The position numbers were made by a program, and so were the translations under genes. 44,733 bases of DNA from Clostridia bacterium (lineage in GTDB: Bacteria; Bacillota; Clostridia; UMGS1883; UMGS1540), in the NCBI GenBank assembly GCA_017620205.1, contig JAFZQX010000028.1, positions 1 to 44,733 on the forward strand, written 5' to 3'. The notes below the pieces were generated by a model. It did no database searches. It saw nothing but the letters and a program-made list of their open reading frames with translations, and had not been told where the DNA came from. Below, one piece after another: positions 785-44,733 of the stretch (its first letter is position 1; every line of letters starts with the position of its first letter).

Positions 785-798
785 TGGTGCGCCATCAG
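785..798 (-). repeat. tRNA-Lys 3'-end fragment, outer copy
   Basis: The 14 bases TGGTGCGCCATCAG are identical to 1120-1133, the last 14 bases (including CCA) of the tRNA-Lys gene on the minus strand. There is no anticodon arm or 5' half nearby, so this is a fragment and not a tRNA. The next 3'-end copy starts 124 bp away at 913. The pattern resembles an attachment-site remnant. Confidence 0.75.
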
Positions 799-912
799 AC
801 GAGGGCGCTTGGCAAAATAGTCCTGCGGACTGTTTTGTAGCCCGAGAGTCCCTGCGAGGCGAAAACGAGCATGCGAAGTTTGAGCCCGTCGAACGATAGT
901 GAGAAAGCGCAC

Positions 913-1123
913 GCGCCATCAGGGACGCATCTTGCTTCGCAATCTGCACTGCTTGGCGACCGAAAGCCGAGGCTTTCAGCACCCGCCTGCGCACCACTCA
1001 CCTAAAAAACAGTCCCCCGGACTGTTTTTCTTAACGGTTCGTGCCCCCTCGGGGTGCGAGTCCCAGATGGGTAACCGCACGCAAAAAAAACAGCTACCCG
1101 AATCGGGTAGCTGTTTTTTTGGT
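913..1123 (-). repeat. 211-bp multi-hairpin unit bounded by tRNA-Lys 3'-end copies
   Basis: The unit begins with GCGCCATCAGGGAC (913-926), identical to 1124-1137 inside the tRNA 3' arm, so the spacing from copy to copy is 211 bp. Within it lie hairpins at 932-942, 962-977, 1005-1029, 1041-1057 and 1062-1071, then the tRNA terminator. The linker GCTTGGCGACCGAAA at 951-965 and the series of hairpins recur in the 212-bp unit beside tRNA-Ser (44461-44672), with changed but still paired stems. Open frames here are antisense noise over structured DNA. Confidence 0.7.
1082..1119 (-). terminator. Rho-independent terminator of tRNA-Lys
   Basis: A perfect 10-bp stem (1091-1100 with 1104-1113, loop AAT) is flanked by A and T runs on both sides. 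It begins immediately after the encoded CCA of the tRNA on the minus strand and could work in both directions. Confidence 0.85.
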
Positions 1124-1195
1124 GCGCCATCAGGGACTCGAACCCGGGACCCACTGATTAAGAGTCAGTTGCTCTACCAACTGAGCTAATGGCGC
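1120..1195 (-). tRNA. tRNA-Lys (anticodon CTT)
   Basis: A 76-nt gene with CCA encoded. The acceptor stem is GCGCCAT paired with ATGGCGC, the discriminator is A, the D arm is GCTCAGTTGGTAGAGC, the anticodon stem is ACTGA/TCAGT with loop CTCTTAA (anticodon CTT), and the T arm contains GGTTCGAGTCC. It stands upstream of and divergent from the gat cluster. Fragments of its 3' end recur at 785-798 and 913-926. Confidence 0.97.
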
Positions 1196-4675: not shown

Positions 4676-6106
4676 ATGAACGATACGTATGAAAGCCCTT
4701 TAAGTTCGCGCTACGCAAGCCATGAAATGAAATATCTCTTTTCTCCCGATAAGAAATTCAAAACATGGAGAAAGCTTTGGATCGCGCTTGCGGAGGCGGA
4801 GCATGAGCTCGGTCTGCCCGTAACTCAGGAGCAGATAGACGAACTTAAAGCAAACGCGGACGATATAAATTATGACGTTGCGAAGGCGCGCGAAAAAGAG
4901 GTTCGCCACGATGTTATGAGCCACGTTTATGCATACGGCATGCAGTGCCCAAAGGCAAAACCGATTATCCACCTTGGCGCTACAAGCTGCTACGTCGGCG
5001 ATAACACTGACCTCATTATTATGCACGAAGGCCTTCTGCTTATAAGAAAGAAGCTTATAAGCGTTATAGCAAGCCTCTCTAAGTTTGCGGACAAATATAA
5101 AGAACTGCCGACAATGGGCTTTACACATTTTCAGCCCGCGCAGCTTACAACGGTAGGAAAGCGCGCATGCCTCTGGATTCAGGAGCTTTTAATGGATTTA
5201 GAAGAGCTTGACTTTGTAATAAGCACCGTAAAGCTTCTCGGCTCAAAGGGCACAACGGGTACGCAGGCAAGCTTTTTGGAGCTTTTCCATGGCGACCATG
5301 AAAAGGTTAAAAAGCTTGATAAGCTTATTGCCGAAAAGATGGGCTTTGACAAGGTTTTCCCCGTATCGGGACAGACGTATCCGAGAAAATTTGACAGCCG
5401 CGTTTTAAACGTTTTAAGCGCAATCGCACAGTCGGCATATAAGTTCGGAAACGATTTAAGACTTTTACAGAACTTAAAAGAAATAGAAGAGCCGTTTGAG
5501 AAAAAACAAATTGGCTCATCGGCTATGGCGTATAAGAGAAACCCGATGCGAAGCGAAAGAATTTGCTCGCTCGCAAGATATGTCATCTCTTCCGCTTTAA
5601 ACCCCGCTATAACAGCTTCAACGCAGTGGTTTGAAAGAACGCTTGACGATTCCGCAAACAAACGCCTCTGTGTTCCCGAAAGCTTTTTGGCGGTTGACGC
5701 TATACTTTCTATTTACTTAAACGTAACAAGCGGACTTGTCGTATACGATAAGGTTATTACGGCGCGCATCATGCGCGAGCTTCCGTTTATGGCAACCGAG
5801 AATATAATGATGAACGCGGTGCTCCGCGGCGGCGACAGACAGGCGCTTCACGAAAAGATACGTGTGCACTCAATGGCGGCGGGCGCAGTCGTCAAGGAGC
5901 AGGGCGGAGAAAACGATCTCTTAGAGAGAATTGCGGCGGACAAAGATTTCGGCTTAACCCTCCGGGAGCTTCAGGGCATTATGAACCCGAGAGATTACGT
6001 AGGCCGTGCGCCCGAACAGACGGCGGAATTCCTCGCGGAATTCGTAAACCCCGTTCTGGAAGCCAATAAAGACGATATCGTTTTGACGGAAGAACTTTCC
6101 GTTTAA
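4676..6106 (+). CDS. purB: Adenylosuccinate lyase, long ADSL type
   Basis: A 476-residue fumarase/aspartase-superfamily lyase. It cleaves adenylosuccinate to AMP and SAICAR to AICAR, each with release of fumarate. The signature GSSAMAYKRNPMRSER lies near residue 282. Other landmarks are HLGATSCYVGDNTDL, GFTHFQPAQLTTVGKR and QWFERTLDDSANKR. From memory these match the long vertebrate-type ADSL closely, unlike the roughly 430-residue Bacillus PurB. The signature Pro common elsewhere is Ala here. The start ATG follows GAAAGGA. It lies between gatB and valS in the same direction, so it is probably co-transcribed, separate from other purine genes. Confidence 0.95.
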   Translation: MNDTYESPLSSRYASHEMKYLFSPDKKFKTWRKLWIALAEAEHELGLPVTQEQIDELKANADDINYDVAKAREKEVRHDVMSHVYAYGMQCPKAKPIIHLGATSCYVGDNTDLIIMHEGLLLIRKKLISVIASLSKFADKYKELPTMGFTHFQPAQLTTVGKRACLWIQELLMDLEELDFVISTVKLLGSKGTTGTQASFLELFHGDHEKVKKLDKLIAEKMGFDKVFPVSGQTYPRKFDSRVLNVLSAIAQSAYKFGNDLRLLQNLKEIEEPFEKKQIGSSAMAYKRNPMRSERICSLARYVISSALNPAITASTQWFERTLDDSANKRLCVPESFLAVDAILSIYLNVTSGLVVYDKVITARIMRELPFMATENIMMNAVLRGGDRQALHEKIRVHSMAAGAVVKEQGGENDLLERIAADKDFGLTLRELQGIMNPRDYVGRAPEQTAEFLAEFVNPVLEANKDDIVLTEELSV

Positions 6107-6135
6107 TATATTAGATAGTTTAGTAGGTGATTTTC

Positions 6136-8751
6136 TTGAATACAAATTTGGAAAAGACATATAATCCGTCCGATATAGAGGACAGATTATACGAAAAATG
6201 GGTTTCAAACGGTTACTTTAAGGCTACACCCGATAAAAACAAAAAACCGTTTTCAATAGTTATCCCGCCCCCGAACGTAACAGGTCAGCTTCACATGGGC
6301 CACGCCCTTGACGAAACGCTGCAGGACATTCTTGTCCGCTTTAAAAGAATGCAGGGCTACAGCGCGCTTTGGGTACCGGGTACGGACCACGCGGGTATCG
6401 CAACGCAGATAAAGGTTGAGGAAAACCTCCGCGTAAACGAAGGCTTAACGCGCTATGACTTGGGCCGCGACAAGTTCCTTGAAAGAGTTTGGGACTGGAA
6501 AAATAAGTTCGGTGACAGAATTATAAACCAGCTAAAAAAACTCGGCTCTTCCTGCGATTGGGACAGAGAACGCTTTACAATGGACGAAGGCTGCTCAAAA
6601 GCGGTACGCGAAGTTTTCGTAAAGCTTTACGAAAAAGGTCTAATCTATAAAGGCCACAGAATTATAAACTGGTGTCCCTCCTGCGCAACGGCACTCTCGG
6701 ACGCCGAAGTTGAATACGGCGAACAGCAGGGACATTTCTGGCATATTAAATATCCCATTAAGGGCGAGGACGGTTATGTAACTATTGCTACAACACGTCC
6801 CGAAACGCTTCTCGGTGATACGGCAGTTGCCGTAAACCCCGAAGACGAAAGATATAAAGAACTCGTCGGCAAAACGCTTATTCTCCCGCTTGTAGGCAGA
6901 GAAATTCCCGTTATTGCGGACGAATATGTTGACAAAGAGTTTGGAACGGGCTGCGTTAAGATCACGCCCGCGCATGACCCGAACGACTTTGAAGTGGGCC
7001 TCCGTCATGATTTAGAGCAGATCAAGATGCTAAATGATGACGCCACGATAGCAAAAGGCTTCGGAAAATACAGCGGTCTTGACAGATACGAAGCAAGAAA
7101 AGTAATGGTAGAAGACCTTGAAAAAGAGGGCCTTCTCATTAAGGTTGAGGAACACGTTCATAACGTCGGCGGCTGCTACCGCTGCAAAACAACGGTTGAG
7201 CCTATTATTTCAGACCAGTGGTTTGTTAAAATGGGCCCGCTTGCCGAACCCGCGGTTGAAGTTGTTAAGAACGGCACAATTAAGTTCGTTCCCGAGCGTT
7301 TCTCAAAGATATATTTAAACTGGATGGCAAATATACACGATTGGTGTATTTCGCGTCAGCTCTGGTGGGGACACAGAATTCCCGCTTTCTACTGCGAAGA
7401 CTGCGGCGAGATGGTAGTTTCAAAAGAAGACTTAACTGTTTGTCCCAAGTGCGGCGGCAAAATGAAGCAGGATAACGACGTTCTCGATACGTGGTTCTCA
7501 TCGGCTCTCTGGCCGTTTTCAACACTCGGCTGGCCCGACAAGACGGAGGATCTCGAATATTATTACCCGACAAGCGTTTTAGTTACGGGCTACGATATAA
7601 TCTTCTTCTGGGTTGCGAGAATGATATTCTCGGGTATGGAGCACGTAGGCAAAGAGCCGTTTAAGCACGTGTTTATTCACGGCCTCGTGCGCGACAGCCA
7701 GGGCAGAAAGATGTCAAAATCTCTCGGCAACGGCGTAGACCCCTTGGAGGTTATAGAGCAGTACGGCGCGGACGCGCTCCGCTTTACCTTAGCTACAGGC
7801 AACTCACCCGGAAACGATATGAGATACTATCCCGAAAGAGTTGAAGCGTCGAGAAACTTTGCAAACAAGCTCTGGAACGCGGCAAGATTTGTTTTGATGA
7901 ATTTGAATTTAGATAAAATAGAACTGCCCCAAAATCCGCAGCTTGAAGATAAATGGATACTTTCAAAATACAATAACGTTGTCAAAGAAGTAACCGAAAA
8001 CCTTGAAAAATTTGACGTTGGTATTGCGGTTTCAAAGATATATGATTTTACATGGGACGTTTTCTGCGATTGGTATATCGAGCTTGTAAAACCGCGTCTT
8101 TACGATGAAAACTGTGAAACAAGAGTTGATGCGGAAAAAACGCTTTCATACGTTTTGCAGGGCATCTTAAAGCTTTTGCATCCGTTTATGCCTTTTGTAA
8201 CGGAAGAAATTTTCTGCGCGCTTCCCACGGGTGAAGAGAGCATTGTAATTTCAAAATGGCCCGAATACTCGGATAAGCTCGTATTCACCGAAGAAGAAAA
8301 CGATATGAGCGTTATCTGCGAAGCTATCCGCGGTCTTCGTAACATAAGAGCAGAGAGAAATATTCCGCCGTCAAAGAAATCAAGACTTATCGTGGTTACG
8401 GAAAACGCAGAGCTTTTCCAAAAGGGCATAAGCTTCTTCCAAAAGCTTGCGTCTGCTTCGGAAGTTGAAATTACAAGCGTAAAACCCGAAGAAAACGCAA
8501 TTTCCGTTATCGCACCCGGCGCGGAACTTTTACTGCCACTCGATGAACTCGTTGACAAAGAAAAAGAAACGGAAAGACTTTTAAAGGAAAAGAAAAACCT
8601 TGAAGGCGAGATTAAGCGAAGCGAAGGCAAGCTTTCAAATCAGGGCTTTTTAGCTAAAGCTCCGCAGAAGCTTATCGATGAAGAGAAGGCAAAATACGAA
8701 AAATACAAAGAAATGTATCAAAAGGTTTGTGAAAGCCTTAATAATATGTAG
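6136..8751 (+). CDS. valS: Valyl-tRNA synthetase
   Basis: A class I aminoacyl-tRNA synthetase of 871 residues from the chosen start. The ATP-binding HIGH motif appears as [11 protein letters not shown] and the KMSKS loop as [11 protein letters not shown]. Two zinc-binding Cys clusters (CEDCGE and CPKCGG) lie between them. An editing domain fills the middle with [18 protein letters not shown], and the C-terminal arm is a charged coiled coil ([20 protein letters not shown]). The start is taken as TTG at 6136, 5 nt after AGGTGA. An upstream in-frame GTG at 6127 is part of that ribosome binding site. Confidence 0.96.
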
Positions 8752-44319: not shown

Positions 44320-44410
44320 TGGCGGAGAAAGAGAGATTTGAACTCTCGCGCCGGTTACCCGACCTACTCCCTTAGCAGGGGAGCCCCTTCGGCCTCTTGG
44401 GTATTTCTCC
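44320..44410 (-). tRNA. tRNA-Ser (anticodon GCT)
   Basis: A 91-nt class II tRNA with CCA encoded. The acceptor is GGAGAAA paired with TTTCTCC. The anticodon stem is CTCCC/GGGAG with loop CTGCTAA (anticodon GCT, codons AGC/AGU). A long variable arm (about TAGGTCGGGTAACCGGC) and a T arm with GAGTTCAAATCTC follow. Its 3' end is duplicated at 39666-39680 and, in part, in the repeats to its right. Confidence 0.97.
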
Positions 44411-44432: not shown

Positions 44433-44643
44433 AACCTCAATGCGAGGGATTAATTAAAATTGGCGGAGAAGGTGGGATAAAGCTTTGCTTTGCAAATCTT
44501 TCCTGCTTGGCGACCGAAAACTTCGTTTTCAGTACCCGCCTTCGCACCTGCTCGCTAAAAACAGTTCACCGAACTGTTTTATTTGCGCTCGCAGCCCTCT
44601 CAGGGTTCGAAGCACTTTGAGTGCATTTGCGTAAATATATCAA
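44433..44643 (-). repeat. 212-bp tandem unit with tRNA-Ser 3'-end sequence and five hairpins, copy 1
   Basis: The unit starts AACCTCAATGCGAGGGAT, then carries TGGCGGAGAA (the tRNA-Ser 3' end) at 44461. Hairpins follow at 44484-44496, 44516-44530, 44558-44580, 44593-44607 and 44612-44624. The same order of hairpins, with different but paired bases, is seen next to tRNA-Lys at 932-1071. The distance to the same tRNA-end sequence in copy 2 (44673) is 212 bp. Confidence 0.75.
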
Positions 44644-44733
44644 AACCTCAATGCTGAGGGATTAATTAAAGTTGGCGGAGAAGGTGGGATAAAGCATTGC
44701 TTTGCAAACCTTTCCTGCTCGGTGACCGAAAAC
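44644..44733 (-). repeat. 212-bp tandem unit, copy 2 (cut by window edge)
   Basis: Ninety bases align with 44433-44521 with one single-base indel and a handful of substitutions. They include the tRNA-Ser 3'-end piece at 44673 and the first hairpin (TTGC with GCAA). It continues beyond the window. Confidence 0.8.

Follow-up and report, generated by a model that had tools for sequence, protein, structure and literature searches.

The window analysed here, the 44,733-nt contig JAFZQX010000028.1 of a Clostridia bacterium (assembly GCA_017620205.1), carries a tRNA-Lys(CTT) gene on the minus strand at positions 1120-1195, and pieces of the 3' end of this gene recur behind it: GCGCCATCAGGGAC was found at 913-926 and 1124-1137, and TGGTGCGCCATCAG at 785-798 and 1120-1133. 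Each of them had two matches in the window when at most one mismatch was allowed, compared with 0.01 expected from shuffled sequences. Thus, the 14-nt copies at 785-798 and 913-926, to which an earlier note on this DNA had drawn attention, are present far beyond chance. In that note the repeats were attributed to small protein-less units that join the tRNA gene and restore its 3' end, and our analysis partly supports this reading of the window. The repeats belong to gene-less cassettes of about 190-215 bp, for which we use the working name "tRNA-end cassettes".

When read in the direction of the tRNA, a cassette consists of 18 nt restoring tRNA positions 59-76, a terminator, an inverted T-arm (the left arm) and a core of several hairpins, after which the displaced original 18 nt follow (the right copy). 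The same plan was observed at seven of the eight tRNA genes examined in this genome, the eighth being the tRNA-Ser(gct) gene of the window, and in these seven cases the 18-nt copy was followed by another terminator. The terminator, the inverted T-arm and the folded core had been missed by the earlier note.

At the tRNA-Lys(CTT) gene all parts lie on the minus strand. The join between tRNA positions 58 and 59 (58|59) falls between 1138 and 1137, and positions 59-76 (1137-1120) are counted as the cassette start according to the edge rule of the family. Next come the proximal intrinsic terminator with its spacer (1071-1119, hairpin at about 1083-1119), whose role was deduced from the pairs of empty and occupied sites described below, and the left arm (1052-1070), which is complementary to both sides of 58|59. 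The core (927-1051; covariance model match 909-1070) contains covarying hairpins recognised from covariation and the DNA fold, namely hairpin A, a long hairpin at about 1004-1030, and those at 955-987 and 927-947, the last with a GCGAAGC loop. The right copy (913-926) comprises tRNA positions 59-72, that is 14 of the usual 18 nt, since it is cut by a second unit. The spacing of 211 nt, measured from position 59 at 1137 to position 59 at 926, therefore corresponds to one cassette, as had been proposed, but the other reported spacing of 124 bp does not represent a second size of that block: positions 785-912 hold a divergent second unit (unit B) ending in CTGATGGCGCACCA (798-785), which is not a smaller version of the first. 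Unit B has a single other match in this genome (C32:847-1037, 82% identity), and the terminator behind it (738-779) is common to both copies.

A covariance model was built from ten aligned units and applied to the ten own loci and to sixty stretches from 24 genomes. It gave 90 matches, of which 89 were used for the counts and one (L097:902-1059), antisense and low-scoring, was left out. A tRNA or transfer-messenger RNA (tmRNA) gene was found upstream on the same strand for 67 units and was lacking for 22. The units always lay on the same strand as their tRNA, in one fixed orientation, and the gap between the tRNA and the unit was 25-53 nt in 49 of the 67 cases. The right copy agreed with the tRNA end at all 18 positions in 46 of the 67 and at 16 or more in 55, involving 19 tRNA types and tmRNA (20 gene types). 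It begins at tRNA position 59, and in 50 of the 55 units the identity ended precisely at 58|59, the same edge being present in tRNA genes without an encoded CCA. Moreover, for 54 of the 55 right copies no other tRNA end in the set matched as well as that of the own tRNA. The left arm, which was compared in 61 of the 67 units, also agreed more with the cognate tRNA than with others at variable positions to the left and right of 58|59, the agreement being 0.92 for the cognate versus 0.51 for other tRNAs at position 57, 0.87 versus 0.33 at position 59 and 0.84 versus 0.53 at position 63. The earlier idea that units insert at the tRNA therefore stands as regards the restored 3' end, but the join lies in the T-loop at 58|59 and not at the 3' end itself.

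Loci with zero, one or several units and clean joins, which the earlier note had named as a sign of mobility, were found, and they include pairs of empty and occupied sites. In genome G012 two tRNA-Leu(aag) genes lie 1.14 kb apart, one empty and one occupied, and their flanks correspond over 169 nt on the upstream side (93.5%, E 9e-72) and over 213 nt on the downstream side (94.4%, E 6e-93). The empty copy runs straight into the distal terminator, and the occupied copy is exactly 212 nt longer, the surplus being 18 nt, terminator, left arm and core. In another genus the tRNA-Arg(acg) gene is empty in G022 and occupied in G015; around the same join the two have common flanks of 137 nt (89%) and 108 nt (76%), and the difference between them amounts to about 204 nt. 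These pairs imply that the distal terminator is the original one and that the proximal one was brought by the cassette. Whole cassettes are thus present or absent at otherwise matching sites. A tRNA-Lys pair from G086 and G242 was not counted, because its distal terminator is a dispersed palindrome occurring behind many tRNA genes, which makes the comparison unsafe. In several genera this palindrome (AAAAAGACAGATTTCG..., often followed by AGCTAAATTCGC-type repeats; L263, L265, L277, L278, L285 and L286) starts right after the CCA, either of a tRNA or of an 18-nt copy, and represents a second repeat associated with tRNA ends. In addition, tRNA-Leu(aag) is tandemly duplicated in two species (L142 in G008 and L274 in G012), with a unit content that differs between the copies.

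Cassettes also form tandem arrays whose terminators are alike and whose last members are truncated. Among 51 arrays, 21 ended in an unrelated terminator with no left arm after it and 3 in an unrelated terminator with one; 19 ended in a repeat of their own terminator together with a left arm and 8 in the repeated terminator alone. The cores were compared in 86 units, four of the 90 rows having been dropped for short cores. The mean core identity was 0.60 between different tRNAs of one genome (209 pairs) versus 0.53 between different genera (3205 pairs), and it reached 0.775 for units of the same genus with the same tRNA 3' end (18 pairs). The nearest core belonged to a tRNA with another 3' end in the same genome for 25 of the 86 units and to another genus for 37. 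The Leu and Ser units of G217 have nearly identical cores and begin to diverge at the 18-nt edge and the left arm, which points to recent copying between tRNA types or to gene conversion of cores.

Two further units, spaced by 212 and likewise missed by the earlier note, lie on the minus strand at the right end of the window (44461-44733). One is a full cassette of the same family (44461-44672, model match 44461-44621), whose right copy (44478-44461) corresponds to the 3' end of a different tRNA-Ser and not of the tRNA-Ser(gct) at 44320-44410; its parent gene lies off the contig. The other, in the same array, is represented by its right part (44673-44733), the model match in L012 being cut on its 5' side by the contig end. 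No unit lies behind tRNA-Ser(gct), the two units being located on its 5' side.

A search with block 600-1119 yielded 24 further matches in the 2.34-Mb genome, many of them beside Glu, Arg, Trp, Lys(ttt) and Ser tRNAs, and so the unit does occur at other tRNA genes, as the earlier note had proposed to check. The covariance model gave 15 matches in this genome at E < 1e-5 and at least one match in 68 of the 291 genomes from the class, with 13, 5, 4, 1 and 0 matches in five species of one genus. The only named match was an uncultured Clostridia bacterium from rumen, with two stretches. Carriage by phages or plasmids was considered and rejected, since no match was found in phage or plasmid records, each searched with one unit, and viral contigs gave one stretch with a unit match. 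In an Rfam scan only the tRNA reached the gathering score, and the weaker matches look like chance. We found no description of the element in open-licence full-text literature, a body that leaves out most subscription papers and all preprints, so that an earlier description is possible; passages of PMC8040213, PMC9897764 and PMC11352879 do not describe it. We rate the element as real, widespread and, as far as the open-licence literature shows, undescribed.

As single strands, the ten aligned units mostly fold alike, with SerX and C37o departing in part, and in the predicted fold the left arm and the 18-nt copy form a closing stem around several hairpins. Two-sided changes were observed in 21 of 50 pairs of the ten aligned units versus 9.9 in shuffles, a count made with the hairpin A loop one pair too wide, as a tighter triloop fits better. 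With 89 distinct rows, in an alignment that leans towards the covariance model, two-sided changes affected 46 of 49 pairs and the covariation score was 0.446, compared with 0.146 after shuffling and at most 0.078 when slid. Folding of the window unit with DNA parameters gave a z score of -3.61, none of 200 shuffles being as good. Loops of 3 nt were present in 145 of 186 unit hairpins versus 5 of 30 neighbouring terminators, with a loop-size ranking that favours short loops equally in both groups. GNA triloops such as GCGAAGC form unusually stable DNA hairpins, to judge from two titles cited in PMC11352879 (Hirao 1994; Yoshizawa 1997). The core may act as folded single-stranded DNA.

A pattern in which an inverted T-arm lies 25-55 nt behind a tRNA end was found in 57 of the 291 genomes, the reversed control giving no match, although several of the 31 pattern matches listed were neighbouring tRNA genes and not units (L234, L235, L249, L250 and L255). 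Some of these genomes (G032, G070, G124 and G170) had no covariance model match, yet they contain the inverted arm and an exact 18-nt copy with a different core. Genomes of about 0.9 Mb (family f8; L238-L240 and L242) have miniature units with an unrelated short core; these units retain the inverted T-arm, and their 18-nt copy is exact or nearly so. Later units at tRNA-Trp (L027, about 4800-5400) and tRNA-Arg (L022) have one hairpin enlarged by a homologous insert (CTCGTCGGAGC...) of about 200 nt, and a further element with the ends CCTAACAGTA and TACTGTTAGG is nested at tRNA-Trp.

Units without an upstream tRNA often stand behind a tRNA 3' fragment (L108, L109, L110, L113 and L137), as expected if an island has joined the tRNA. 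In the viral contig L196 (IMGVR_UViG_3300032167_002428) the frame of a 522-aa large serine recombinase with Resolvase, Recombinase and zinc ribbon domains (5151-6839) passes through TCCACCA just before the terminator, with an orphan unit directly behind, which suggests islands integrating at the CCA end of tRNA genes. At L021 6018-9629 (G000:C33) two units with tRNA-Ser(gga) ends lie about 3.3-3.4 kb apart, and two genes of the same orientation are located between them, encoding proteins of 437 aa (HTH, AAA_28, CYTH) and 402 aa (no Pfam match); this spacing is possibly a cassette with cargo. In L185, L187, L189 and L190 tRNA-Leu genes are interrupted within or after the anticodon loop region, and the foreign DNA has its own complete tRNA-Leu slightly further on. 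The 5' half of tRNA-Pro (L188 401-824 and the start of L192) occurs twice, about 200 bp apart, at a contig end of G222 and is then followed by the same foreign sequence; G137 has one tRNA-Pro 5' half of this type.

The search for an enzyme covered 10-13 genomes. No match to the integron integrase profile TIGR02249 exceeded the cut-off in any of 10 genomes, the matches being split around model positions 192-240. Tyrosine recombinases, which the earlier note suggested seeking elsewhere in the genome, were present in all 10 genomes, with two in the unit-bearing G103 and eight in the unit-free G182, but none stood out as dedicated to the units. In the genome of the window, two diverged genes for such enzymes (463 and 398 aa) lie next to each other at G000:C14:10374-12266. 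The Y1 transposase profile PF01797 was detected in 7 of 10 genomes and was undetected in the unit-bearing G012 (89% complete) and G113 (92%). The reverse transcriptase profile PF00078 was detected in 5 of 13 genomes and undetected in 8 of the 12 that bear units, including the genome of the window. These absences come from incomplete assemblies and are weak evidence.

To explain the anatomy of the units, the 58|59 edge, the single orientation, the ends matching the local tRNA, the tandem arrays and the presence or absence of whole cassettes, we lean towards a family of gene-less mobile cassettes that are joined at the T-loop by structure-guided strand exchange. A cassette would enter the T-loop of a tRNA or tmRNA gene at 58|59, its own 18 nt would rebuild positions 59-76, and the 18 nt that it displaces would come after it, together with the original terminator; since the end is restored and a terminator is carried along, the tRNA would stay whole and still terminated. 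The left arm, which can pair with both sides of 58|59, could serve as a splint, drawing the tRNA stub towards the distal 59-76, and might thereby direct excision as well as insertion. Movement would be in trans, with a host Xer-type tyrosine recombinase as the first suspect. A core could reach a tRNA with a different 3' end by copying of the target or by gene conversion between cores. The bolder proposal that the cassettes constitute a new class of mobile DNA, which folds itself, finds its tRNA via the inverted T-arm across 58|59, takes on the last 18 bases of its target so that the tRNA survives, carries its own terminator and relies on a host recombinase acting in trans, we put forward only tentatively. 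Several observations weigh against the cassette reading. No recombinase was found for the units with the integrase, tyrosine recombinase, Y1 and reverse transcriptase profiles in the 10-13 genomes, the argument for a single strand is indirect in that it draws on the triloops and the DNA fold z score, and 12 of the 67 right copies fall below 16/18, truncated, rearranged and insert-bearing units being among them. By the left arm alone, the cognate tRNA was unbeaten in just 24 of 61 units. Moreover, the two pairs of empty and occupied sites fit gain as well as clean loss by slippage between the 18-nt repeats, and the likeness of cores within a genome could be due to gene conversion.

A rival explanation, which we consider rather unlikely, is that the units are old, non-mobile passengers of tRNA genes, which multiply within arrays by tandem duplication, stay alike in their cores through gene conversion and are lost cleanly by slippage between 18-nt direct repeats on either side of strong hairpins, without any dedicated enzyme. 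The arrays with like terminators and truncated last members, 27 of the 51 ending in a repeat of their own terminator, agree with it, as do the closest likeness among same-genus units with the same 3' end and the lack of a recombinase that correlates with the units. However, it leaves unexplained how an inverted T-arm and an 18-nt copy arose at a fixed 58|59 edge in 20 gene types and why unrelated cores follow the same plan, and 21 of the 51 arrays end in an unrelated terminator without a left arm, as insertion predicts. A selected cis-acting or small RNA, produced by read-through from the tRNA promoter, with a left arm competing for the T-arm and the 18 nt as a decoy, would account for the strong covarying structure, the complementarity of the left arm to the tRNA and the constant strand; this is improbable, as a terminator separates the tRNA from the unit, the triloops are unlike the neighbouring RNA terminators, Rfam gave no match, and the units are patchy within one genus and vary in copy number. 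Reverse transcription primed by a tRNA yields an 18-nt copy of the tRNA 3' end, positions 59-76, and a retroposed cDNA ending at T-loop position 58, as in tRNA-primed retroelements, would produce exactly the sharp edge observed. We give this very little credence, because PF00078 was undetected in 8 of the 12 unit-bearing genomes, among them that of the window, the left arm extends past position 58, and the edge is unchanged in tRNA genes without an encoded CCA. The alternatives raised by the earlier note, decayed duplicates of tRNA genes or one eroded island, have a point in their favour, as islands do occupy these tRNA genes and several of the 22 units without a tRNA follow on the 3' fragment of a tRNA or on a gene end in CCA. 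As explanations of the whole family they are nevertheless refuted and practically negligible: the copy is confined to the final 18 nt and has a sharp edge, and the core is conserved, covarying and present at 20 gene types.

If the cassettes are mobile, the tRNA genes of many bacteria of this class host small, gene-less mobile DNA matched in sequence to its target, in which DNA enters an essential gene repeatedly and harmlessly, and the question would be which host enzyme joins DNA at the T-loop. They would also offer a compact, target-matched cassette for study, and the occurrence of one plan with unrelated cores would place the addressing in the ends and not in the core. If they are not actively mobile, they still represent an unlisted covarying element beside 20 kinds of tRNA and tmRNA genes, in what appears to be empty spacer.

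Integron cassettes with attC sites are small, keep one orientation, form tandem arrays and are joined at a fixed point of a folded imperfect-repeat site with the ends RYYYAAC and GTTRRRY. The tRNA-end cassettes are likewise small, uniformly oriented and tandem, and have a fixed join and a folded site with conserved ends and a variable middle; however, they are received by the T-loop of many tRNA genes, normally have no coding cargo and have ends that match the local tRNA. These ends are the tRNA's own sequence and not of the attC type, as read by eye with no dedicated motif search run. Membership in the integron gene cassettes was rejected, since no IntI exceeded the cut-off in the 10 genomes, and the likeness to integron cassettes claimed by the earlier note holds for the layout only, because no recombinase was identified.

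Genomic islands, integrative and conjugative elements and prophages integrated in tRNA genes are reportedly a subject of Williams 2002. In such elements the tRNA 3' end is restored and a partial copy lies at the far end, according to passages of PMC9897764. A partial copy at the distal end and an empty site elsewhere were both found for the cassettes, which differ from these islands in their length of about 200 bp, the lack of integrase and cargo, their own terminator, the inverted T-arm, the tandem ladders and the constant 18-nt copy at many tRNA types; the spacing at L021 is a possible exception to the absence of an own integrase and cargo between the repeats of the units. The cassettes thus fail the tested defining features both of integron cassettes and of tRNA-integrated islands. 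IS200/IS605-type and REP elements are hairpin DNA, and in this transposase family a guide base-pairs with the cleavage site; the cassettes differ from them by the 18-nt copy and the long left arm, and Y1 was undetected in two unit-bearing genomes. In group I and II introns and IS110 bridge RNAs a guide strand spans both sides of the target join. Although the cassettes, unlike these, have no Rfam match and no coding sequence, and reverse transcriptase was undetected in 8 of 12 genomes, they resemble them in the left arm, which like a guide spans both sides of the join.
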